DNA of 46,914 nucleotides, taken from a virus. The position numbers were made by a program, and so were the translations under genes. Of the stretch, positions 338-9,153 are shown one piece after another. Under the pieces are notes generated by a model, which was given only the letters and a program-made list of their open reading frames with translations, did no database searches and was not told where the DNA came from. Where the stretch lies: IMG/VR virus record IMGVR_UViG_3300049795_000028, positions 1 through 46,914 of that record; one strand, written 5' to 3'. How positions within the stretch are numbered: position 1 is the stretch's first letter; every line of letters starts with the position of its first letter.

Positions 338-365
338 AAAAAAGGCTATCAGTAGAGAACCTTTT
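338..365 (-). terminator. intrinsic terminator after the 364-642 gene
   Basis: On the minus strand AAAAGGTTcTC pairs with GAtAGCCTTTT around a 4-nt loop, followed by a T6 run. The stop codon of the upstream gene lies in the base of the stem. Confidence 0.7.
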
Positions 366-642
366 AGAACATTTGTAGTTGGGCGCCTGAGTCCGGCTGC
401 CAATTAATATCCATTGCCAAGGGATCATAGCCTTCCTTTTCGAGAACACCCATCAATGTTGAGTATTGTTCGTATGTTGCCGGTTCACATCCGCTTATAT
501 ACAGGATGTCTGCTTCATTTTGGCGGAGGTGCCCGCCATTATCGAGTTCGTAAATATCGAACATGTCGTCTGAACCCTTTTTGCTTTCAGGGTCGTAACC
601 AAATACACAGTTGTATTGGTCGATAAGAAAAATAATTTTCAT
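364..642 (-). CDS. hypothetical protein, 92 aa
   Basis: I do not recognise this small acidic protein. It starts MKIIFLIDQY and has no obvious signal peptide or membrane segment; the hydrophobic start looks like a buried first beta strand. The start is well supported: AGGAGG sits about 6 nt upstream, one of the few strong Shine-Dalgarno sites in the window. It is flanked by terminators on both sides (673-695 upstream, 338-365 downstream), so it is either monocistronic or transcribed by read-through of the upstream one. No promoter of the recurring type is visible directly before it. Confidence 0.75.
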   Translation of the reverse strand: MKIIFLIDQYNCVFGYDPESKKGSDDMFDIYELDNGGHLRQNEADILYISGCEPATYEQYSTLMGVLEKEGYDPLAMDINWQPDSGAQLQMF

Positions 643-672
643 TTGTTGCCTCCTTTTTAAAATTTTGTGAAT

Positions 673-695
673 AAAAAAACCGGCATTAGGCCGGC
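673..695 (-). terminator. intrinsic terminator after the 721-1105 gene
   Basis: Minus strand: CCGGC, loop CTAAT, GCCGG, then T7. It lies 26 nt past the stop of the upstream gene. Confidence 0.8.
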
Positions 696-720
696 GTCGT
701 GTTGTTTTCTGTCGTATTTA

Positions 721-1105
721 CTATAGCTGTGCTTTGAGTTCCTTTAAAATAGCTTTCAGGTGCTTTTCTGTAAGCGTATTATTCCATTGTTTTTGCAGGG
801 TCGGGCATTCTTGAAGTGCTTTTTCCCCGTGAATGTACGCGTACATATTTGCTACTTTTTCTGAACTGGAGAAATCCGTGTTCACCTCTCCGAAGTTCTC
901 TTTCTCGTATTGTTTAATTTCTTCGATAGCGGCGAATATTCCCGGGCCATCAGCGAGGAATTTCTCCGCGGCGGAATAGCCTATAATAAAGTAGTCATTG
1001 TTAAATAGTTCATTATGCAAATCCCTGGCGTTAATCCCTGGATCAATTGCCTTCTAACTTTTGGATTCCGTGCGCTACAACAGCGCTGTTGATTTCTGCT
1101 TTCAT
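721..1105 (-). CDS. conserved phage protein (INARDLHNELF type) broken by a +1 frameshift
   Basis: The main frame (721 to about 1075) carries KAIDPGINARDLHNELF and then FIIGYSAAEKFL and EKVANMYAYIHGE. These look like a family of small proteins I remember from Bacteroidota phages and prophages, possibly DUF7222; the name is from memory. This frame has no ATG at its start, only a TTG at 1020, although conserved-looking sequence continues upstream of it. A second frame supplies an ATG at 1105 and the residues MKAEINSAVVAHGIQKLEGN before a stop at 1043. Skipping one base near 1053-1056 (GAAGGC) joins them as ...QKLE-AIDPGINARD..., about 127 aa. The extra base is either an assembly error, a real mutation or a recoding site. 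The segment resembles the start of the 9173 protein (MTKAEINST), perhaps by chance. Confidence 0.7.
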
Positions 1106-1127
1106 TTTTGGGGGTTTTGTGGGAAAT

Positions 1128-1156
1128 AAAAAAGCCCCACATTTCTGTGAGGCTTT
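1128..1156 (-). terminator. intrinsic terminator of the large ncRNA
   Basis: Minus strand: AAAGCC-T-CACA, GAAA loop, TGTG-G-GGCTTT, then T-rich tail (A run at 1128-1133 on plus). It lies just upstream of the 721-1105 gene and so closes transcription from the 1933 promoter. Confidence 0.85.
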
Positions 1157-1927
1157 CTATTGCTCGGTTTATTTACTTATTTTTGGGTTGAACTGCTATG
1201 TTAATGCCCAGGTTTTTAAAGCCTGCATTCTGTTAATAACGGGCGGTTAATTGGATAGCGTCCAATGCGCTTAATATTATATAGTTCTGTGATTTTTTAT
1301 TGATTCGGTGCCATAATTGGCACGGGGGTACAGTCATAACCCTGAGTTTATTAATCCGCCCAGCTCGTATTGCCGTATTAAAAGAATTGCTTTTTATTGG
1401 TTCCCTCACCGAAGATAAAAAGCCTTTTAACCGCTTTGGCACAATAACCGCTAATATATAGGCTCGTATTCACTGCGATAACACAAACACGTTGAAAGGG
1501 GTAGGTATTAAAAGAGGTGTACAAAAAACCACCTGAGCGCGTCCGTAAGAGTTGCCCCGTTCCCATCTATTCAAAGTATTCATTAAGTCAAAGAACTCAG
1601 AAAATAGACCCCAAAAATCGATTGGCGGGGTCAAACCTGATATTAAAACTTTCCTAACCTATAAGAGAGAAGTAAACAATGCACTGTTGTATATGTACGC
1701 AATAGAATGTTTTCACTCTCATTTAGCTTGCATCGTTGCCACTGTTTACCAGCGTTCCCGCTGTTGTCCTATGCTTGCTATCAAGCTACTGGCTTCCCTA
1801 TTACCACTAAGGCCCGCCTCCGTTTCATTATAGGGCTTTAACTTTACAGATACGGCACTATTCGCACTCGTATATATGGTATTAAAAAGGCTTTAAAGAA
1901 CGATTATCAAATAATTGCTTTGTTTGA
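1128..1927 (-). ncRNA. large structured non-coding RNA, about 800 nt (candidate)
   Basis: The region is bounded by a full promoter (1933-1965) and a strong terminator (1128-1156), both on the minus strand, and no ORF inside looks like protein. Perfect local helices, given as plus coordinates of the two arms: 1250-1255/1261-1266; 1308-1313/1318-1323; 1378-1384 plus 1389-1397 with 1415-1430 (16 bp with a 4-nt bulge); 1515-1519/1530-1534; 1607-1612/1627-1632; 1750-1754/1759-1763, closed by a GGAA (GNRA) tetraloop on the minus strand; 1773-1777/1782-1786; and 1796-1801/1830-1835. The motif CTTTTAATAC occurs three times (1375-1384, 1505-1514 and, with one extra T, 1879-1889). Size, phage context and lack of ORFs recall the large ornate RNAs GOLLD and ROOL, but membership is not shown. 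Confidence 0.6.
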
Positions 1928-1932
1928 CGTTA

Positions 1933-1965
1933 CAAATATACGGCAATATGTGATGTGATTCCAAA
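1933..1965 (-). promoter_or_regulatory. promoter, TTTG-N21-TATATTTG, for the ncRNA
   Basis: On the plus strand CAAATATA (1933-1940) is followed after exactly 21 nt by CAAA (1962-1965). On the minus strand this is the Bacteroidota -33/-7 promoter with the same 21-nt spacing as the promoters at 7068 and 8427. Predicted start about 1927. Confidence 0.75.
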
Positions 1966-2642
1966 TTGAAAATCGCAAATTTTGATTTTAACATTTGCAA
2001 TATTTGCAAATGAGCCGCTGCAACCCTTGATAATAGGGCAAAGTAGAAATTATTTAGAATGAGTATAAATAATATTGGCTATAATGATGAGGTATATATT
2101 ATTTTATCGCAGATAAAAACCCCTTTCCCGCCCCATATTCCCAGCCGCTAAGATCATGCATTTAATAATATGGTGAATATCTCCAAAGACCTTGTATATA
2201 ATTATGCTTTTCTACCCTAAAAATATACGCCCTATATTGTCGTATAATAATAATTATGTTAAATAGCAATGATCTATCCCCATGCCCAGCCCCTCCCCTA
2301 CCCCACTACATAAGCGCGGCATTCAATTATAAGACGCTCTCAAGTGCCGGGCGTTCGCTTTGCGTTCGGGATTGGGATGGGGGGCAGGGGTGCTTTTGTA
2401 GGACATAATCCCCCATCACAGATTTTTCATACATTTCGAACCCCTCTTACCTAACTACCTGATAATGAACCACTTGAATAAAACAGCTATTTCTTGATGC
2501 CTTGCCCGGCCCGACTTCCGGAAATAAATGACCCGGAGGGGTGTTTCGGGACCCGAGTACCTGGAGCTGGTCATAAATATATTTCTCTCGTTGAATTTTG
2601 CCCTCATTCTCCGCCCAGGTGGGGTGGAGCTATGAGAAATAC
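1966..2642. other. apparently non-coding region; AT-rich inverted repeats and a G-rich tract
   Basis: I see no convincing ORF on either strand. The left part (1966-2280) is AT-rich and holds overlapping inverted repeats, such as ATTTGCAATATTTGCAAAT near 1991-2009 and AAAATC...GATTTT near 1970-1990. The middle (2280-2400) switches to C-rich then G-rich sequence on the plus strand. An origin, a packaging site or a regulatory hub are all possible; nothing decides between them. Confidence 0.4.
2368..2390 (+). other. G-quadruplex motif
   Basis: Four G runs with short loops: GGG-ATT-GGG-AT-GGGGGG-CA-GGGG. This meets the usual G3+N1-7 rule. A C-rich tract (about 2282-2305) lies 70-90 nt upstream, so the strand could instead fold into a hairpin. 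Confidence 0.6.
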
Positions 2643-2747
2643 ATGAACTTCGAAAAAGGGAAGCGCGTCAACATGTGTGACGGTGATCTTAAAACGATCT
2701 GCGGTGCCCTCGGGCTGATCGTGACGGTGAGTGTGGTGGTGAACTAA
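2643..2747 (+). CDS. small hydrophobic-tailed protein, 34 aa
   Basis: ATG at 2643 and TAA at 2745-2747. The first half is polar (MNFEKGKRVN) and the C-terminal half is hydrophobic (LGLIVTVSVVV), compatible with a short membrane-associated peptide. No strong ribosome site is seen. It lies 42 nt before the next small gene on the same strand, and that gene has its own promoter. It could be a chance ORF; support comes from its position and composition only. Confidence 0.4.
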   Translation: MNFEKGKRVNMCDGDLKTICGALGLIVTVSVVVN

Positions 2748-2754
2748 ATTTCAC

Positions 2755-2762
2755 TATGTTTG
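2755..2762 (+). promoter_or_regulatory. -7 element TATGTTTG before the 50-aa gene
   Basis: Matches TAnnTTTG and lies 28 nt before the ATG at 2790. No exact -33 TTTG lies at the usual spacing, so this is a partial match. Confidence 0.45.
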
Positions 2763-2789
2763 CACCCAACTTAAAAACTTAAAGAAGCC

Positions 2790-2942
2790 ATGAACAAGTA
2801 TTTCACAACCGTAAAGAACCACGAGAATCACATCGTTTTCGCGGGCATCGTCCTTTTTGAATCTGACGCAAAGGCGCAGGACTACAAAATCTCAGCTGAG
2901 GCAGGTGGCAACACCGTGATCTTGGTGTATCAGGCGGAGTAA
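2790..2942 (+). CDS. hypothetical protein, 50 aa
   Basis: ATG at 2790, TAA at 2940-2942. The sequence (MNKYFTTVKNHENHIVFAGI, then a C-terminal NTVILVYQAE) looks like a compact alpha/beta fold of real coding character. It has a promoter-like element upstream and a perfect terminator 20 nt downstream, so it is probably a monocistronic small gene. The function is unknown. Confidence 0.65.
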   Translation: MNKYFTTVKNHENHIVFAGIVLFESDAKAQDYKISAEAGGNTVILVYQAE

Positions 2943-2960
2943 TATCCTACTGACAAATGA

Positions 2961-2993
2961 AAAAGCCCTTGATGATCTCAAGGGCTTTTTTTA
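2961..2993. terminator. two-way terminator between converging genes
   Basis: AAAAAGCCCTTGA and TCAAGGGCTTTTT form a 13-bp perfect stem around TGATC, followed by more T. It works for the plus gene ending at 2942 and for the long minus operon whose last stop is at 2991-2993. Confidence 0.95.
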
Positions 2994-3227
2994 TGCTGCC
3001 ATGTGAGTCGGAAGGAGGAGCTTCGCTTTCCTCGTGCCTGGCAATTTCGTAGATACAACGAGCACCTTCTCCACCGTCCAGCCGTGCTTTTTCCATATAG
3101 CCCATGGCATCCTGTCGCCAATGTAGTCACTGATGCAGTCCTTCCGCAGGTAGCGCGTGGAGTTGATCATCATGGCACCCTTCGGGTCCCGGATGCAGTA
3201 TGCAATGTGTGATTCTGGTTTGCTCAT
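2991..3227 (-). CDS. hypothetical protein, 78 aa; last gene of the minus operon
   Basis: Basic protein starting MSKPESHIAYCIRDPKGAMM, with a central WAIWKKHGWTVEKV segment. I do not recognise it. It starts 5 nt after the stop of the 44-aa gene, and its stop codon touches the operon terminator, so it is the distal gene of the 7062-2991 operon. The wording of the N-terminus (a short protein that handles a single residue pattern, INSTRYLRKDCI) suggests a small beta-rich domain; no function is inferred. Confidence 0.75.
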   Translation of the reverse strand: MSKPESHIAYCIRDPKGAMMINSTRYLRKDCISDYIGDRMPWAIWKKHGWTVEKVLVVSTKLPGTRKAKLLLPTHMAA

Positions 3228-3231
3228 AGCT

Positions 3232-3366
3232 TTAATAATTTTCCATTACCCCGTCATATTCAAGCTGGGTCATCATAAACATTCCGCCCTCCGGATTTCC
3301 TTCGCGGTCAATCTCCTGCTCCATGAGCTGCTCGATCTCTGTGAGGTCGGAAGGTTCTGGATTCAT
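3232..3366 (-). CDS. hypothetical acidic protein, 44 aa
   Basis: ATG at 3366-3364 overlaps the stop of the preceding gene as ATGA, and the stop is at 3232-3234, five nucleotides before the next start. The protein is acidic and Met-rich (MNPEPSDLTEIEQLMEQEID, then MFMMTQLEY). The overlaps on both sides are good evidence that this short gene is translated, by coupling. Function is unknown. Confidence 0.75.
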   Translation of the reverse strand: MNPEPSDLTEIEQLMEQEIDREGNPEGGMFMMTQLEYDGVMENY

Positions 3367-3773
3367 TTTACTGGCAGATTTTCTATGTGTCCTTTAACGA
3401 GCTGATCAATGCAGCAGTGTCCGTGCCGATAGGGCCTGTCCCCGTCCTTACATCGGTCGTAGTACTTGCAATTTTTAATGTCCGGCTTATCCACCACAGC
3501 CTGAAAAATCTGCTCTTTAGTGGGTGACACCTTATGCAGCTTGTAAAGGTTGTGCAGCGTCCGCAGGATATCACAGCTTGCCGTAGTGGAGCTGTAACCG
3601 ATATGCTTCCGCGCCTTCGCCACGACCTCCCTGCCGGCATCCGTCATGTGATCACTGATCTTATGGTGATATGCCTGCCACTCCATCCGATGAAAGATAG
3701 GAGAATACAACTCCACAAAGCGGAGCTGCATCTTCTGTCTTATGCGGGTGCTGAATAGCATTTTAGTCTGCAA
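3363..3773 (-). CDS. hypothetical protein with C-terminal Cys/His cluster, 136 aa
   Basis: A basic helical N-terminal half is followed by a C-terminal segment with five cysteines and two histidines in a short span (CKYYDRC... about 10 residues ...HGHCC near residues 102-124), which could hold a metal ion. It overlaps the upstream Tad2-like gene by 11 nt and is coupled downstream through ATGA. The second in-frame ATG (residue 5) would remove most of the upstream overlap. Not recognised. Confidence 0.75.
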   Translation of the reverse strand: MQTKMLFSTRIRQKMQLRFVELYSPIFHRMEWQAYHHKISDHMTDAGREVVAKARKHIGYSSTTASCDILRTLHNLYKLHKVSPTKEQIFQAVVDKPDIKNCKYYDRCKDGDRPYRHGHCCIDQLVKGHIENLPVK

Positions 3774-4125
3774 GGTTTATTACTTCGTACCAGTCTTCTG
3801 CCATCACATCCTGGGAGGATGCGTTCCACCCGGAGATATTGTTGTCCTTGTCAACGATCGCCATCTGGTTGTTATAGTGAATTGCGCGCCCGCGACTTGC
3901 GAAAACGTTTTTCACCAATGCTGGCACCGAAGTCATCTTCGGAATGATATCCATCTCAATGGTTGCCGGAACCTGTCTGAAAACAAACATCCCTTTGCCA
4001 TTCCATCCGGCACGTTGAACAAGTCCACCAGCCTTTAACGTTTTTGTAGCTTCACCAAAAGAGAATGGCCCTGCTACCTGTTTTAAATTATCCATGATTC
4101 GTATCGGGTTCATTAAGCCGCCCAA
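3763..4125 (-). CDS. DUF2829 / Tad2-like protein (possible Thoeris anti-defence)
   Basis: From about residue 20 the protein follows the DUF2829 pattern: SFGEATKTLKAGGLVQRAGW then NGKGMF, a variable middle, and a C-terminal GWNASSQDVMAEDWYEV matching the family ending (W-x-A-S-x-x-D-x-x-A-x-D-W). Length (120 aa) is normal with a ~15-residue N-terminal extension; ATGs at residues 5 and 11 are alternatives. Known: the phage protein Tad2, of this family, binds the cyclic ADP-ribose signal of Thoeris defence and so blocks abortive infection; relatives bind other defence nucleotides. Inferred: the same kind of role here. DUF2829 proteins are diverse, so the ligand is open. It sits mid-operon among small unknown genes. 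Confidence 0.8.
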   Translation of the reverse strand: MGGLMNPIRIMDNLKQVAGPFSFGEATKTLKAGGLVQRAGWNGKGMFVFRQVPATIEMDIIPKMTSVPALVKNVFASRGRAIHYNNQMAIVDKDNNISGWNASSQDVMAEDWYEVINLAD

Positions 4126-4130
4126 GGCTG

Positions 4131-4559
4131 TTATTCACATTCGCAAAATTTCATTCTTGACCCGCAGTATCTGCAAATTTTTCCATCATAGCTGATGAAT
4201 TCAAGGTTGTCGAAAATACAGAAGGCGTATTCTGTTGGCACATTCGTTGAAGCGTTGCCATCTTCGCTGTTCAGATGTACGGAGCCGTCCTTTAAAAATA
4301 TTTCCTTCACCTTCCATTCGAAGGCTTCTGTCTCCCAGTTCTTAAATTTTACAGTCGCAGATACCGGGAATTTGCTTTCTATGTGGTGAAGTATGGCAAG
4401 CTCAAAATAGGAGTGCTGACATAAGGCGGATTTGATAACCTCGAAGCTGCGCGGGATATCGATTGTTTTATCCACCGCCTTTTGCATGATCTCACGAATG
4501 TAATCCTGCTGCTCCCTAACGCGCTTAGCGAGGAATCTTATGTCATCCATCTCCTTCAT
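4131..4559 (-). CDS. hypothetical protein with C-terminal zinc-binding motif, 142 aa
   Basis: The N-terminal part is helical and polar (FLAKRVREQQDYIREIM), the middle is beta-like, and the last 15 residues hold CRYCGSRMKFCEC: a CxxC plus CxC pair that could bind one zinc. It overlaps the stop of the small membrane gene upstream as ATGA and ends 5 nt before the Tad2-like gene. The family is not recognised. Confidence 0.75.
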   Translation of the reverse strand: MKEMDDIRFLAKRVREQQDYIREIMQKAVDKTIDIPRSFEVIKSALCQHSYFELAILHHIESKFPVSATVKFKNWETEAFEWKVKEIFLKDGSVHLNSEDGNASTNVPTEYAFCIFDNLEFISYDGKICRYCGSRMKFCECE

Positions 4560-4675
4560 TTTTTCAAAATCTCTTTAACGTTTTCCATCACTGTGGCGAT
4601 CACAGCGTATGCAAAGACAGCCGTAAGAAACGCCTCCGTAGGGTATTCACGTATTGTTTCAAAGAATGTCGCCAT
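4556..4675 (-). CDS. single-pass membrane protein, 39 aa
   Basis: The frame is open further upstream to 4786, but that part lies inside the preceding gene. I choose the ATG at 4675 because it overlaps the preceding stop as TGATG, and because the protein then is a neat short membrane peptide: MATFFETIREYPTE, a hydrophobic stretch FLTAVFAYAVIATVM, and a basic tail ending KEILKK. Its own stop overlaps the next ATG (ATGA). Function is unknown; an inner-membrane location is likely. Confidence 0.7.
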   Translation of the reverse strand: MATFFETIREYPTEAFLTAVFAYAVIATVMENVKEILKK

Positions 4676-4950
4676 CAGATAATTGGTTTTATGGGGATCC
4701 GCAACTCTGTTTGATCTACGTTCACCGTTGGGTAACTCGGAGTATAACCTCCCGGTATGCCAGGGAAGATGAATTGCTTCCCACATTGGGTGCAGTTGAT
4801 CTCCAAATCAGCGCGATATCCGGTCACGGGGCCACCATCGACCTCCGTGAGGCGGGTGACGTTACACTGAGCATGGAAGCGCTCGTGTGCGCACTCCTTA
4901 CCGAAGTTCTCCATCGGATTATTTGCCTGTTCCTGCCCCATCCTCTGCAC
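4675..4950 (-). CDS. hypothetical protein, 91 aa, zinc-ribbon-like half site
   Basis: Contains CTQCGKQF near residue 53, a zinc-ribbon-like CxxC, with earlier Cys/His residues (ECAHERFHAQC, residues 19-29) that could complete a metal site. The C-terminus is Pro/Ile-rich. It overlaps the preceding gene by 32 nt; the ATG at residue 13 would shift the start to 4914 and remove the overlap. Not recognised. Confidence 0.65.
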   Translation of the reverse strand: MQRMGQEQANNPMENFGKECAHERFHAQCNVTRLTEVDGGPVTGYRADLEINCTQCGKQFIFPGIPGGYTPSYPTVNVDQTELRIPIKPII

Positions 4951-5119
4951 TGTTAGAATCGTTTGCCAGCTTTTCCACCTGCTTCGGAGGATTCAGCATG
5001 TTTGTCATCAGTGTCGCCTTTGCGAACTCCAGCATGCCAAGCGTTTCAATGTTGGAGACTGTTCCCACCACAGAGAAAGCGCCTTTCTCATCTTGTTCAA
5101 TTACTACTCTTTTGCTCAT
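4919..5119 (-). CDS. hypothetical protein, 66 aa
   Basis: The N-terminal beta strands (MSKRVVIEQDEKGAFSVVG) lead to an amphipathic helix (LGMLEFAKATLMTNML) and a disordered polar tail. It overlaps the upstream gene by 23 nt and the downstream gene by 32 nt. Small proteins of this look (beta hairpin plus LGxLExA helix) are common in Bacteroidota phages; no function is known to me. Confidence 0.65.
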   Translation of the reverse strand: MSKRVVIEQDEKGAFSVVGTVSNIETLGMLEFAKATLMTNMLNPPKQVEKLANDSNSAEDGAGTGK

Positions 5120-5489
5120 CTTCTTTTTGGGTTTTATTGATAGTTGATTTTAACTCTTCCAGCTCCTCCGGGCTCATATCCATGGGCACCCTTTCGATGC
5201 GCGCATGCTGCCCGTTCCAAAAGCCTTCCTTGTAGGATTCGGACCGCTCTTTCACCACGAACCGGTACATGTAGGTGATCATCATGTCCACATCGAGCGA
5301 TGCATGGTCGCCCTGTAATCCGGAGCGTATAAGCGCATCCCGTACAGCATCTTCGGTACGCTCGTAATCGCTTTTTTCTTTTTGCTCGTAATCGACCTGC
5401 TCATCCTCGTTCTTTGATGAGCGCCAGGCCCACACGCAGCAGGTGCCGATGCATAGGGCGACCACTAAAAGCAGCTTAGCTATGTCCAT
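5097..5489 (-). CDS. membrane-anchored protein, 130 aa
   Basis: One N-terminal membrane segment (LLLVVALCIGTCCVWAW, residues 6-22) is followed by a long charged, largely helical soluble part. It could be a signal anchor with the C-terminus outside or inside; the charge balance does not decide it. Neighbouring genes overlap on both sides (14 and 23 nt), so it belongs to the operon. Not recognised. Confidence 0.75.
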   Translation of the reverse strand: MDIAKLLLVVALCIGTCCVWAWRSSKNEDEQVDYEQKEKSDYERTEDAVRDALIRSGLQGDHASLDVDMMITYMYRFVVKERSESYKEGFWNGQHARIERVPMDMSPEELEELKSTINKTQKEDEQKSSN

Positions 5490-6201
5490 TGTCGCCCTCC
5501 CCTCTTATCCATTCGAAATCCTCGGAATTTACTTCCGTCCCCCAAAGCCTTTCCGGGTAATCGTTATTTTTTGGCACTATAAACCGGTTTTTTTCATCAT
5601 CCCAGATCGCTTTTCCCTGCCCGAACTTTGTCAGGTGCTCACGTCTCTTTTTCACCTGCTCCCACTCCTCTTCACTGAGTCCTTCCGGCTTCGGATCCGC
5701 AGAGCTGAATTCCAGCTCCTCCTCGAAGTCTGCATCTGATACCACTCCCAGGGATCTTAACACAAGGAACGCAATGTGCGCATTATGCAGGCCCACAGGA
5801 ATACCTTTTTCGGCTATGCCGGTGATCATCCAGTTATCATCATCGATCCGCGCGATCATGTGTTTTCCCTTGGCATAACAGGTGGGAGAAAATCCTTCGT
5901 CCGTAAGCTTGAGCGTTGTCTCCTCAAATCCGAAGTCCTGCGGGATGAATGGATATTCGGCATGCATGTCCCTGATCTGCTGCTCGGCTATTCCCAGCGC
6001 AGTGTTGGCATCGTGCAGGCGGTCCATAAAGAAGTCCCGCTGCTGCTCCGGGCTCTGCTGATCTATCCACGCAGGATAAACTGTCGTGTCGATATCCGCG
6101 AAAACACGATTTTCGACAATGGATGTTTTTACTCTGTTGGGAAACACTTCCTGTGTCTTTATCCCATCGTGCGGATATCCTCCGAATAGTGATTTTCTCA
6201 T
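5476..6201 (-). CDS. hypothetical protein, 241 aa
   Basis: The largest protein of the left operon. It is soluble and acidic, without signal peptide or membrane segment. The C-terminal third is highly charged (EGLSEEEWEQVKKRREHL near residue 172) and ends in an acidic tail. The overlap with the next gene and the 1-nt gap to the gene before show operon membership. I recognise no motif. Confidence 0.8.
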   Translation of the reverse strand: MRKSLFGGYPHDGIKTQEVFPNRVKTSIVENRVFADIDTTVYPAWIDQQSPEQQRDFFMDRLHDANTALGIAEQQIRDMHAEYPFIPQDFGFEETTLKLTDEGFSPTCYAKGKHMIARIDDDNWMITGIAEKGIPVGLHNAHIAFLVLRSLGVVSDADFEEELEFSSADPKPEGLSEEEWEQVKKRREHLTKFGQGKAIWDDEKNRFIVPKNNDYPERLWGTEVNSEDFEWIRGEGDNGHS

Positions 6202-6202
6202 A

Positions 6203-6619
6203 TTAAAAGTCTGCTGGTTTTTCTGTGAATGTATAGTTGTGGCGAGTGTTTACAAGGTTTATGCAATGAATAAATATTCTGGAGCCTATACGATTATCGC
6301 CTTCCTTGCGCAGGGTGGCACGTTTATTTATGTTGTACAATACGTCTTCGGACACCTCATGCCAGCGCTTTGTGAGGTAGAATTCGAAGAGAAAACCGAC
6401 CTGTAAATGGTTGTTCAGTGGTTGCCATATCGCCCAGCCGAGAAGCGCTTTAAGAAAGATGAAAATGAAATAAGGAATTAAGAAAAAAATGTAAAAAAGG
6501 CAGGTCAATATTGCCATGATCTTCTCGGCTCCATCGCGAGCCCAGGTCATCTTGTTGTGTAGCTCGTAGCCTGCACAAAGGATATTGATTGCAAAGTAAA
6601 TCTCTAAAAGTGTTCTCAT
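6203..6619 (-). CDS. membrane protein, 138 aa
   Basis: Two hydrophobic stretches: a short one near residues 5-17 (LEIYFAINILCAG) and a long one near residues 34-67 (ILTCLFYIFFLIPYFIFIFL and onward) that could span the membrane once or twice. The C-terminal half is basic and soluble. The ATG overlaps the preceding stop at 6619. The function is unknown; membrane-located early proteins of phages often block superinfection, but nothing here shows it. Confidence 0.75.
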   Translation of the reverse strand: MRTLLEIYFAINILCAGYELHNKMTWARDGAEKIMAILTCLFYIFFLIPYFIFIFLKALLGWAIWQPLNNHLQVGFLFEFYLTKRWHEVSEDVLYNINKRATLRKEGDNRIGSRIFIHCINLVNTRHNYTFTEKPADF

Positions 6620-7062
6620 TAGCTGAAAGGTGTTATGATGTGTGCGAGCATCCCATCCTGTACCTGATCGGGCGACTTATTTGAGAAGTCGAACCCCTTC
6701 GGGTACATGGTGCTTATCATGTAGCTCTTGTCCTGGTCGAAGTATGTTTTTATGGGGCCGTTGTAACTAAGCTTTTTTTTTGCGGAGCGCGCATCGAGTC
6801 TTCCGATCTGCGCGAGGAACTCTTCGTGCACCTTGTCAAACTCTTCGTAGGAGATACGCAAGATTTGTGACGGGGTGTTCGTGTTGTAGCGCACATAAAT
6901 GCGCTTCTTGCCGTCTGTAAACCTGTCATCCGCCAGCTCCTCAAAATCTTGGACCGTTCCGAGGTCCATCGTCTTCCGGGTGGAGATGATTCGCTTCAAA
7001 TCATCGTCAAACCAGTCAACGATGCATTTGTACTTACGATAAAATCTGTGTGGTTCAATCAT
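6619..7062 (-). CDS. hypothetical protein, 147 aa; first gene of the minus operon
   Basis: Soluble alpha/beta protein with aromatic-rich N-terminus (MIEPHRFYRKYKCIVDWFDD) and a central beta segment. Not recognised. It is the promoter-proximal gene: the -7 element TATATTTG ends 5 nt before its ATG, so the mRNA should start at or within a few bases of the start codon, i.e. be leaderless or nearly so. Confidence 0.8.
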   Translation of the reverse strand: MIEPHRFYRKYKCIVDWFDDDLKRIISTRKTMDLGTVQDFEELADDRFTDGKKRIYVRYNTNTPSQILRISYEEFDKVHEEFLAQIGRLDARSAKKKLSYNGPIKTYFDQDKSYMISTMYPKGFDFSNKSPDQVQDGMLAHIITPFS

Positions 7063-7067
7063 CGGGG

Positions 7068-7100
7068 CAAATATATAATTTATTTCACAGTTTTGTCAAA
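7068..7100 (-). promoter_or_regulatory. promoter of the 7062-2991 operon, TTTG-N21-TATATTTG
   Basis: Plus strand CAAATATA at 7068-7075, 21 nt, CAAA at 7097-7100. It overlaps the end of the preceding minus gene (stop at 7080). No terminator is seen between 7062 and 2993, so one transcript can cover all 12 genes. Confidence 0.75.
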
Positions 7101-7451
7101 AACATCGTAAAAAAATGAAATTAATTTTCCATTCGGGTCGGAAGGGAACAACCACACGACTCCGAGCTCAGTTTGGAACACTACGGTGCACACATCCCGG
7201 TCGTTTATGTCCAGAATAATGCTCGCCTCGGTGTCGGTGCGCTTCCGGATCCGCATTTGATGGGATTCCTTCGTCTCAAGGTTGGTGACGGTGAGAAAAG
7301 TGGTGTCAACCTGCATTGTCGTAGCCAGGGTGAAGGAGTTTGTGATCTTCGCACCCCTCACCTGTTCGGTGAAGTTGTTGCCGGTGACGGTTACTGTCTG
7401 CGCCAGCATGCTGCCGGTGATCAGGGATAGGAATAGGATGAGTTTTTTCAT
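7080..7451 (-). CDS. exported protein with signal peptide, 123 aa
   Basis: The N-terminus is a clear signal peptide: KK, a hydrophobic core LILFLSLITGSML, then A-Q-T as likely cleavage near residue 18. The mature part is beta-rich with Thr/Val-rich strands and no cysteine pair that would suggest a lipobox. Exported proteins are uncommon in lytic phage genomes; periplasmic or surface action, such as superinfection exclusion, is possible but unproven. Its ATG overlaps the stop of the GIY-YIG gene (ATGA), so the two are translationally coupled. Confidence 0.8.
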   Translation of the reverse strand: MKKLILFLSLITGSMLAQTVTVTGNNFTEQVRGAKITNSFTLATTMQVDTTFLTVTNLETKESHQMRIRKRTDTEASIILDINDRDVCTVVFQTELGVVWLFPSDPNGKLISFFYDVFDKTVK

Positions 7452-7972
7452 AATGATGACAAATATTTAATTATTGATTCGCAATCTTGCGAGGAAAGAT
7501 TGAACCATTCTCCACGCAGCCGTTTTTGACTATAAGATGTGTGCAAGTGAAGCTCTTGCCCTTCTCCGTTTTCAAGTAGTCCAGTTTTGAATATTAATTC
7601 TACCTCTGGCTCTTCCGATTGAAGCGTTTTTTCTCTGAATACAGGATTTTGGGACACGCCAATTTTGATGTAACCATTCCTTTTGTTTTTCATTAAATAA
7701 ACGCATGTGGGCTCAGGAATGGATTGTAATTTAGCCCCTGTATTTTGCTCTTCCCAAATCTTGTTCCAGCGTAACCTGTCTCTTTCGTCTAAGTATTCAT
7801 TTGCTTTTTCAAAATCAAAACTATTCTCTTCGTATGATTTAATTGTGTGTTCAACGTGCTTTTTTAGTTCGCGCAAAACACCTATACTGTAAAACCTGTG
7901 TTTGTCGTTTTCGATAAATCCGTCTTCCGAAACAGTGAAGATATCTGCATGATTAGTTCTTATAATTGGCAT
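7448..7972 (-). CDS. GIY-YIG-superfamily protein (T5orf172/MUG113 type)
   Basis: Residues ~90-172 follow the T5orf172/MUG113 pattern: CVYLMKNKRNGYIKIGVSQN (YLM...YIKIG replaces GIY...YIG), then R at about 112, and HTSYSQKRLRGEWFNL with the family's EWF motif. These are minimal GIY-YIG relatives, often in phages, some nuclease-like and some of unknown activity. The N-terminal ~85 residues are charged and helical, perhaps a DNA-binding or adaptor part. The gene follows a structured RNA region (7985-8290) and is coupled to the signal-peptide gene downstream. A mobile or homing role is one reading; a regulatory one is equally open. Confidence 0.75.
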   Translation of the reverse strand: MPIIRTNHADIFTVSEDGFIENDKHRFYSIGVLRELKKHVEHTIKSYEENSFDFEKANEYLDERDRLRWNKIWEEQNTGAKLQSIPEPTCVYLMKNKRNGYIKIGVSQNPVFREKTLQSEEPEVELIFKTGLLENGEGQELHLHTSYSQKRLRGEWFNLSSQDCESIIKYLSSL

Positions 7973-7984
7973 ATTTCAGTTATT

Positions 7985-8290
7985 TACAATATCTCTTTTA
8001 ATCCCGGCAACACCCCACCCTCGCCACTGGTGATGTTGCAGAATCGACAGATGAACCTTTTAACCCTCGCTCAATCTGTAAGCTATCTATACTCAAGTCT
8101 CCCACTCCGGTCGCGGGTGCTAAGTTGTTCCCTAAAGGTCGTTGCCGGTCGTTAGATGTCAGTTTTCGACAGAGCTAACACATTTTTCAACTTAGCGCAA
8201 GTAACATAACTACTGGTTTATTCTGCGGCCTGGGGACCGCTGGGCGCTTTCGCATGTAAACCTGGACTCAAAACCCTATGTAATACCAAA
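7985..8290 (-). ncRNA. structured RNA or structured leader upstream of the GIY-YIG gene (candidate)
   Basis: No ORF here is convincing, but complementary arms are dense. Plus coordinates: 8119-8127 with 8188-8196 (9 bp perfect, long range) enclosing 8151-8155/8175-8179 and 8157-8160/8168-8171; 8215-8220 with 8257-8262 enclosing two hairpins, 8225-8230 with 8234-8240 and a GC hairpin with GAAA loop on the minus strand (8246-8253); 8047-8052/8074-8079; 8008-8012/8034-8038. Nested arms around junctions suggest a folded RNA rather than random sequence. Strand is inferred from the minus promoter at 8427 and the downstream minus gene. Confidence 0.5.
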
Positions 8291-8293
8291 AAC

Positions 8294-8340
8294 AAAAAAC
8301 CCTCAAGTTTACAGGGATGAGCTGCACACAAGAGGGCTTT
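8294..8340 (-). terminator. terminator or attenuator, minus strand
   Basis: Minus strand CCCTC (8332-8336) pairs with GAGGG (8300-8304), followed by T6. The 27-nt loop itself folds partly (CAG/CTG). It lies between the 8427 promoter and the structured region, so it would make a ~125-nt RNA or act as an attenuator for the genes downstream. Confidence 0.55.
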
Positions 8341-8348
8341 TGTAAAAG

Positions 8349-8390
8349 TCAGAATCGGAATCCTAACTCTATATCTTTAAAATCTCTCAT
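8349..8390 (-). CDS. possible 13-aa leader peptide
   Basis: ATG at 8390-8388, TGA at 8351-8349, encoding MRDFKDIELGFRF. It begins about 30 nt after the predicted start of the 8427 promoter transcript and ends 9 nt before the terminator hairpin, the layout of a leader-peptide attenuator. No clear ribosome site is seen, and a 14-codon ORF can arise by chance. Confidence 0.25.
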   Translation of the reverse strand: MRDFKDIELGFRF

Positions 8391-8426
8391 CCAGATTTTG
8401 TTTTTTATATTTTTTAAGAACTTTGG

Positions 8427-8459
8427 CAAACATAGGGAATAACTTTCACAAAAAACAAA
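8427..8459 (-). promoter_or_regulatory. promoter, TTTG-N21-TATGTTTG
   Basis: Plus strand CAAACATA at 8427-8434, 21 nt, CAAA at 8456-8459. Spacing is identical to the promoters at 1933 and 7068. It partly overlaps the terminator of the upstream 92-aa gene, so the two units are packed back to back. It should serve the structured RNA, the GIY-YIG gene and the exported protein. Confidence 0.75.
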
Positions 8460-8488
8460 TGCTTGTGAAAACTTTTCCACAAGCATTT
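8449..8488 (-). terminator. terminator of the 8513-8791 gene
   Basis: AAATGCTTGTG (8457-8467) and CACAAGCATTT (8478-8488) form an 11-bp perfect stem; on the minus strand a T-rich stretch follows. Confidence 0.85.
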
Positions 8489-8512
8489 GCTAATAAACTT
8501 TGTACCAGCGAC

Positions 8513-8791
8513 TTAAACTGTTGTCTGAGCGGCAGCAGCTTTAACGGCAGCGAAAGAAGCATCACGAGTGACGATCTTAGCCGCTGTGTTCGCGCCTGGG
8601 TACTTCAATTTGATCTCCCGCTGAGGGCTGGTAGTGTCCATGTGAAAGATGATACCTACGTCTTGTTTCGTAGCATCATTCACATCTGTTCCGACCTGGT
8701 ATTTGTCGAAACCTACCACCTTATCCATCGGGATCTGGATGTTTGGTGTAGTGTTGGTAGAGCAGTTCACCATTTTTTGAACTATTGCCAT
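8513..8791 (-). CDS. hypothetical protein, 92 aa, isolated
   Basis: Small soluble protein starting MAIVQKMVNCSTNTTPNIQI; the C-terminal part is Ala-rich (FAAVKAAAAQTTV). It is not recognised. It stands alone: divergent from the late operon (8875), with its own strong terminator, and no exact promoter match upstream (a near match, TACATTTA on the minus strand, lies at about 8825-8832). A separate, strongly terminated unit beside the late promoter suggests a protein needed in quantity or at a different time. Confidence 0.75.
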   Translation of the reverse strand: MAIVQKMVNCSTNTTPNIQIPMDKVVGFDKYQVGTDVNDATKQDVGIIFHMDTTSPQREIKLKYPGANTAAKIVTRDASFAAVKAAAAQTTV

Positions 8792-8874: not shown

Positions 8875-9153
8875 ATGGGACTTCTTGACACAGCAGAAAA
8901 GTTCAAACGTATTGCCGAAGGATGGAAAAATGTGGTATTTACATCACCAACAGTTGAAGTGATCGCCAAGGGCCGCGCCAAAGTTTGTGCCGCCTGCCCG
9001 CATGCTGTTCCATCCTCATGGCTTCAAGCCGTAGTAGGTGACGAGGTAAAAGAAATACAAGGCCTTAAATGTGAGCTTTGTAATTGCCCGATCTCCGCTA
9101 AGGTGCGCTCGTTGAACGAAAAATGTGCCATGCAACCTGACCCTCTCTGGTAA
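8875..9153 (+). CDS. cysteine-rich zinc-ribbon-like protein, 92 aa
   Basis: The frame is open from 8785, but the upstream part runs through the promoter and an odd hydrophobic sequence, so I take the ATG at 8875 (MGLLDTAEKF). Cysteines: VCAACPHA (CxxC near residue 42), then KCELCNCPISAKVRS (CxxCxC near residue 66) and a final C before MQPDPLW. This CPH...CxxCxCP...K..S..C..W arrangement is widespread in Bacteroidota phages as a small zinc-binding protein, often near the packaging genes. Function is unknown. It opens the late operon. Confidence 0.8.
   Translation: MGLLDTAEKFKRIAEGWKNVVFTSPTVEVIAKGRAKVCAACPHAVPSSWLQAVVGDEVKEIQGLKCELCNCPISAKVRSLNEKCAMQPDPLW

Follow-up and report, generated by a model that had tools for sequence, protein, structure and literature searches.

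Processive antitermination leaders such as HK022 put and EAR are promoter-proximal RNAs that head long operons and act independently of the gene that follows. In T-even phages, structured RNA controls the homing endonuclease genes I-TevI, mobE and segB, and intrinsic terminators are also found at homing endonuclease genes of these phages (PMC2988022). The T4 segB gene is located in a tRNA cluster (Table 1 of PMC2988022). The HEARO, or omega, RNA is structured and lies in the 5' UTR of the gene for the nuclease IscB (PMC9755519).

The phage RNA analysed here resembles each of these systems in part. It shares the operon-head position of the antitermination leaders, but a terminator-like hairpin precedes it. 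As at the T-even genes, RNA structure lies directly 5' of a GIY-YIG or HNH gene; however, the T-even leaders described in PMC2988022 are hairpins at the ribosome binding site, whereas this RNA is about 275 nt long, has a three-way junction and a candidate pseudoknot, and shows no evident sequestration in a folding that ignores pseudoknots. Compared with HEARO and IscB, the protein encoded downstream is a 174-aa T5orf172 GIY-YIG protein or a small HNH protein of 180 aa, and RuvC was not found. No published account of the RNA was found in the literature searched, a scope outside which most subscription papers lie.

The locus and its upstream signals

The window, by which we mean the whole stretch of DNA analysed, is a linear-class virus record of 46,914 bases whose proteins have only remote matches to phage terminase, portal and primase-helicase families. 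Its minus-strand genes span 364-8791, and its plus-strand structural genes begin at 8875. The RNA region is non-coding according to the list of open reading frames and is flanked by a 92-aa gene (8513-8791) and by the nuclease-like gene, the first in a run of minus-strand genes. A domain search of the 174-aa product of this gene found MUG113/T5orf172 only. The main elements are as follows.

8427-8459, minus strand: Bacteroidota-type promoter-like site TTTG-N21-TATGTTTG, found by pattern search and compared with shuffles
8294-8340, minus strand: terminator-like hairpin CCCUC...GAGGG, then U6GU5, just 5' of the conserved RNA
8004-8279, minus strand: conserved structured RNA of about 275 nt, identified by covariation; model match at 8078-8279 plus the 3' pseudoknot strand
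7448-7972, minus strand: GIY-YIG (T5orf172/MUG113) nuclease-like gene, the first after the RNA (PF13455, E 1.2e-9; PF10544, E 6.7e-7)

An nhmmer search that used the RNA region of the window as query detected a single similar site in L033, L034 and L035 (E ~1.5e-8). These three loci are near-identical to each other and are counted as one lineage; their terminases are ~42% identical to that of the window, and in all four the RNA is oriented alike with respect to the terminase gene.

The earlier note on this DNA had proposed a promoter at 8427-8459, and the motif TTTG-N21-TATGTTTG, which we take to match the Bacteroidota promoter consensus, lies exactly there. The window holds nine sites of this pattern against 2.39 expected in shuffles, and 1 of 100 shuffles had as many. 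The terminator-like hairpin proposed at 8294-8340 has a stable minus-strand fold (z -3.45, equalled by 1 of 200 shuffles), but it is absent from a strict terminator scan whose sole entry listed is 8454-8491, presumably because of its long loop. At the equivalent place L035 has a similar hairpin, AUCCCU...AGGGAU-UUUUCUUUU, with a weaker z of -1.45. The entry at 8454-8491 is itself a 17-pair terminator-like hairpin with a T run on the minus strand, after the 92-aa gene, and overlaps the upstream element of the promoter-like site. By eye, the promoter region before the RNA in L035 resembles a copy before the neighbouring 83-aa gene (3520-3620 and 3900-4030).

The fold and its comparative support

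Single-sequence folding of the whole region gave no excess stability (z -0.08 on the minus strand and +0.50 on the plus strand), and for sub-regions and for L035 and L033 z ranged from -2.71 to +0.71 with neither strand clearly favoured. Because folding of single sequences carries no signal and Rfam offers no match, the window alone cannot be used to judge whether a structured RNA is present, and the relatives settle the matter. The elements of the fold that emerged from the comparison, all on the minus strand, are listed here.

8263-8279, minus: 5' block AUAGGGUUUUgAGUCCA, the same in L035 and L033 save one inserted g
8215-8262, minus: P1, GGUUUA/UAAACC, pairing 8257-8262 with 8215-8220 and enclosing two local hairpins
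8198-8210, minus: 5' strand of P2, GUUAU-gu-UACUUG (helices 4 and 5; four pairs with two-sided changes)
8188-8196, minus: 5' strand of P3, GCUAAGUUG (helix 6; three pairs with two-sided changes)
8152-8178, minus: hairpin P4, UUAG-cuc-UGUC-gaaaacu-GACA-u-CUAA, within P3 (helices 7 and 8)
8141-8148, minus: candidate pseudoknot strand CCGGCAAC, in P3 after P4 (L035 counterpart CUGCCAAG at 3257-3264)
8119-8127, minus: 3' strand of P3, CAACUUAGC (helix 6)
8101-8117, minus: hairpin P5, CCCGC/GUGGG (helix 9; one pair with a two-sided change)
8082-8095, minus: 3' strand of P2, UGAGUA-uag-AUAGC (from the stem scan and alignment A6)
8004-8011, minus: candidate pseudoknot partner GUUGCCGG (L035 counterpart CUUGGCAG at 3139-3146)

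P2 is a long helix that closes a three-way junction around P3, which contains P4, and P5. The RNA family comprises two lineages and three distinct sequences, and its structure was drawn by hand and tested on sequences that informed it. It was first drawn on the L035/L033 pair, and that model scored window positions 8078-8279 (minus strand) at 59.1 bits; replacing a short hairpin at the 5' strand of P2 by the longer P2 from the stem scan raised the score to 68.4 bits. The latter value (E 7e-17) belongs to covariance model R2, which was built from L033 and L035 only, and it is not blind to structure, the R1 and R2 structures having been drawn with both lineages known. There are two less biased tests. 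A sequence-only profile of L033 and L035 scored 40.1 bits against the window, and the stem scan on a sequence-only alignment found 11 double changes, 5 stems and 25 pairs in stems with at least two double changes, values reached by 2, 3 and 0 of 300 column shuffles, respectively. One stem from that scan (ACCC/GGGU, AGUA/UACU) was an artefact of a misaligned P3 3' strand and is absent from the final structure.

In the structural alignment A6 (four rows, three of them distinct), all 135 of 135 cells are standard pairs and 12 of the 49 pairs show two-sided changes. When the alignment was slid by 1-3 columns, 28-44% of cells were paired and at most one pair had a two-sided change. None of 500 shuffles reached any of five measures, a count that the tool states is not a probability. 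On these comparisons, positions 8004-8279 of the minus strand very probably encode a genuine conserved structured RNA.

The candidate pseudoknot has eight base pairs, three of which are changed on both sides between the window and L035. A test for stems of at least six pairs with two double changes found 2 against 0.16 expected, and 16 of 1,000 shuffles gave at least 2. Taken alone, the long-range pairing of 8141-8148 with 8004-8011 is predicted with moderate confidence. An alternative pseudoknot in L035, CAACUGC with GCAGGUUG, was discarded, as the window retains only four of its pairs.

Two observations bear on the strand. G.U pairs make up 15 of the 135 paired cells of A6, and these would be A.C if read on the plus strand. 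Across 268 nt of RNA plus leader, six sites distinguish L033 from L035: one changes A-U to G.U in P2, four lie in an 8-pair hairpin in which all pairs are kept, and one is in the loop of that hairpin. The RNA is thus placed on the minus strand, the strand of both promoter and nuclease gene.

The earlier note had assumed this strand for a structured RNA between the promoter and terminator and the GIY-YIG gene, and both the model built from relatives only and the covariation agree with it. Its long-range helix 8119-8127/8188-8196 has three two-sided changes relative to L035 and L033 (L035 has seven of the pairs, three of them changed on both sides), its junction helix 8215-8220/8257-8262 has one two-sided change and one change of G-C to G.U, and its inner hairpin (8152-8178) covaries in two of eight pairs. 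The junction closed by P2 and the candidate pseudoknot are new additions to those two helices. The covariation in homologues that the note had proposed as a check is thus present, in the 12 pairs given above.

Distribution of the RNA and exchange of its neighbour

The gene that follows the RNA differs between the two lineages. In L033-L035 it encodes a protein of 180 aa that matches HNH-type families only (domain test on L035), and the HNH gene looks maintained because L033 and L035 differ in it by 12 synonymous and 7 replacement codon changes. The GIY-YIG and HNH nucleases are separate genes in both lineages, and RNA and nuclease gene occur together in 4 of 4 carrier records. The distance from the 3' strand of the pseudoknot to the start codon is 31 nt in the window and 30 nt in L035, the two genes being unrelated. 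The RNA keeps its place ahead of nuclease genes that are swapped.

Relatives of the virus were sought by several routes. Neither the 92-aa protein alone nor the terminase alone yielded any, nor did tblastn of terminase, portal and capsid against the phage collection; 7 relatives came from one capsid query, and 57 loci from a terminase alignment. Model R1, run on 62 of 67 loci (the duplicates or near-copies L001, L008, L010, L033 and L034 were omitted), matched only L035, besides a 7.6-bit chance match in L003. Three DNA patterns searched against viral contigs recovered the three contigs already found and, beyond these, only contigs that lack the RNA, among which L071 is coding and L072-L087 have no R1 match; one DNA pattern searched against genome contigs (65 stretches) matched only the pattern itself. 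Model R3, run on 28 whole records, matched those of L033, L034 and L035 and gave one further match, in the L038 record (10.3 bits, E 0.09), which we take as chance. It matched 0 of 3 genomes and, under strict filters that left few candidates scored, 0 of 395 genomes from the phylum to which a Chitinophagales genome belongs. The RNA models thus found no third lineage in the loci, records and genomes searched. The regions upstream of the GIY-YIG relatives in L002 and L003 have no such RNA.

In a terminase tree of 30 rows, the window, L033-L035, L004 and L011 form one clade (support 100/99), and the other 24 rows gave no matches to the RNA models. RNA presence and absence require two label changes on this tree, and a single gain followed by losses may also give the distribution. 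L004 and L011 are the closest relatives of the window by terminase identity, and the RNA is absent from their equivalent slot: L004 has an HTH-like gene behind an attenuator-like leader, and L011 has neither RNA nor nuclease. By eye, the leaders at L004 2640-2760 and L022 3000-3140 (both minus strand) contain complements of 9-11 nt (GGAAAGGUC/GACCUUUCC; GGAAAGGGGUU/AACCCCUUUCC) that could compete as a switch with a terminator hairpin, as in an attenuator.

Searching both nuclease proteins in named phages led to Vibrio phages with a parallel arrangement, in which ~500 nt of non-coding DNA precede a GIY-YIG gene (phages 1.016 and 1.265) or an HNH gene (2.095.A). Similar non-coding DNA is present at 15 loci (L158, L159 and L161-L173). 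The first annotated gene after it encodes a GIY-YIG protein at two loci, an HNH protein at two (with HNH second at one more), a phosphatase or phosphoesterase at two, an auto-processing chaperone domain protein at one and an unknown protein at six, and at one locus there is none. The conserved part spans ~300-500 nt and falls into at least two sequence groups (L158 1200-1700, L159 1230-1750, L162-L173). By eye, it is preceded by a TATAAT-like box together with an inverted repeat that has a T run. Its consensus fold is weak, Rfam has no match in it, and R3 gave no credible match in the 8 of 17 phage loci searched (L157-L173). The Vibrio region is therefore at most an analogue, unrelated in sequence to the RNA of the window, but it is a conserved non-coding region whose downstream gene is swapped.

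Known RNA classes and possible roles

Rfam gave no match in the window at gathering score, and the 23 matches obtained in 7900-8530 up to E 10 are all far under the gathering scores of their families. The earlier note had proposed such a scan with group I introns included, and no family was found. Its remark that no group I core sequences are visible holds for the covarying fold, which has no recognisable group I elements; with no interrupted gene or exons seen and no Rfam match either, a group I intron, the intron-type element raised in the note, receives no support. HEARO, which has an Rfam model, is likewise unsupported, given the lack of a match and of a RuvC and HNH architecture in the downstream proteins. 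The comparative evidence firmly supports an RNA family that appears to belong to no recognised class and has no Rfam match, at a place invisible to free-energy screening.

The likeness to permuted tmRNA (RF04321) is that related phages have one in this neighbourhood. A permuted tmRNA is not supported, and we dropped a plus-strand tmRNA reading based on a tmRNA-like 5' string near 8024 and the tmRNA in L009: RF04321 gave nothing at E 10 or better in the window, in a search that also gave matches in 14 control genomes, above cut-off in one; the covarying fold has no T arm or CCA end; and the covariation is that of the minus strand. In the relatives, permuted tmRNA genes (RF04321) lie at L009 2296-2523 (plus strand), L011 67-283 (minus strand) and L022 3819-4014 (plus strand), and ARAGORN also calls tmRNA in L037, L040, L043 and L044.

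We tentatively read the RNA as a cis-acting 5' leader of the nuclease-led operon that is indifferent to the coding sequence behind it, and we put the chance that this is correct at slightly under even. A leader is favoured because the RNA retains its strand, its adjacency to the gene and its spacing even though the coding sequence differs, and this reading is supported by the common strand of RNA and nuclease gene, by the promoter and terminator-like hairpin upstream, and by the T-even precedent (PMC2988022). Transcription would start at the 8427-8459 promoter, and many transcripts may stop at the 8294-8340 hairpin by partial termination. Those that read through would fold the three-way junction, with P2 around P3/P4 and P5, and the long-range pseudoknot would anchor to the core a segment lying ~30 nt 5' of the start codon, which might limit ribosome access or set transcript processing or elongation. 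Such an effect would come from the leader, whatever the coding sequence, so that one nuclease type (GIY-YIG or HNH) could take the place of the other behind a retained leader. Against a leader, no sequestration of the start-codon region is predicted (the start codons are 0.51 and 0.72 unpaired in a folding that ignores pseudoknots), and a terminator upstream of a simple leader is odd, with no alternative antiterminator fold evident. Were regulation specific to the nuclease, unrelated nucleases would be unexpected.

The main rival, which we consider rather unlikely, is an independent phage non-coding RNA, acting in trans or as a scaffold and cut from the operon transcript, beside which the nucleases arrived by intronless homing. 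It would account for an RNA retained while its neighbour switches from GIY-YIG to HNH and for the unrelated Vibrio region that precedes GIY-YIG, HNH, phosphatase or unknown genes, and T4 segB in its tRNA cluster is a precedent (PMC2988022); however, no copy of the RNA was found without a nuclease gene, no terminator of its own is seen 3' of it, and its spacing to the start codon is near-identical in both lineages. The constant pairing of RNA and nuclease gene in the carrier records also suits a functional cassette, in which the RNA is bound by the nuclease, serves as a guide or is an mRNA-processing ribozyme and moves with the nuclease. Its absence from that slot in L004 and L011 of the same terminase clade and its placement upstream of the nuclease gene, like that of HEARO (PMC9755519), point the same way. 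Such a cassette is nonetheless improbable: one RNA would have to serve nucleases of unrelated folds, neither nuclease has the RuvC and HNH architecture of HEARO/IscB systems, the RNA models reached no third lineage, and two losses in a small clade explain the distribution equally well. It is just as doubtful that this RNA class is the constant half of a cassette in which one pseudoknotted RNA cooperates with, regulates or processes any small nuclease (GIY-YIG or HNH) encoded ~30 nt downstream, an unrelated RNA filling the equivalent role in Vibrio phages. A folding energy no better than that of shuffled sequence would fit complementarity by chance or the decay of coding DNA, but, unless the alignment is an artefact, either is scarcely credible beside a homologue of E 7e-17 at the corresponding position in a distant phage, with its compensated pairs. 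Of the roles suggested in the earlier note, a regulated leader and a separate small RNA are thus both possible, and of the mobile element the combination of nuclease and RNA is possible but the intron is not supported. The RNA offers a concrete model (fold, strand and ends) for phage control or mobilisation of nucleases, with a parallel in cultured Vibrio phages.

Elsewhere in the window, 1020-2990 is a non-coding block of ~2 kb with few credible reading frames, in which Rfam gave nothing near gathering score. At the end of the record, positions 1-170 form, by eye, a tandem array of short units of the CGTACACCTGAGCATCGC type.
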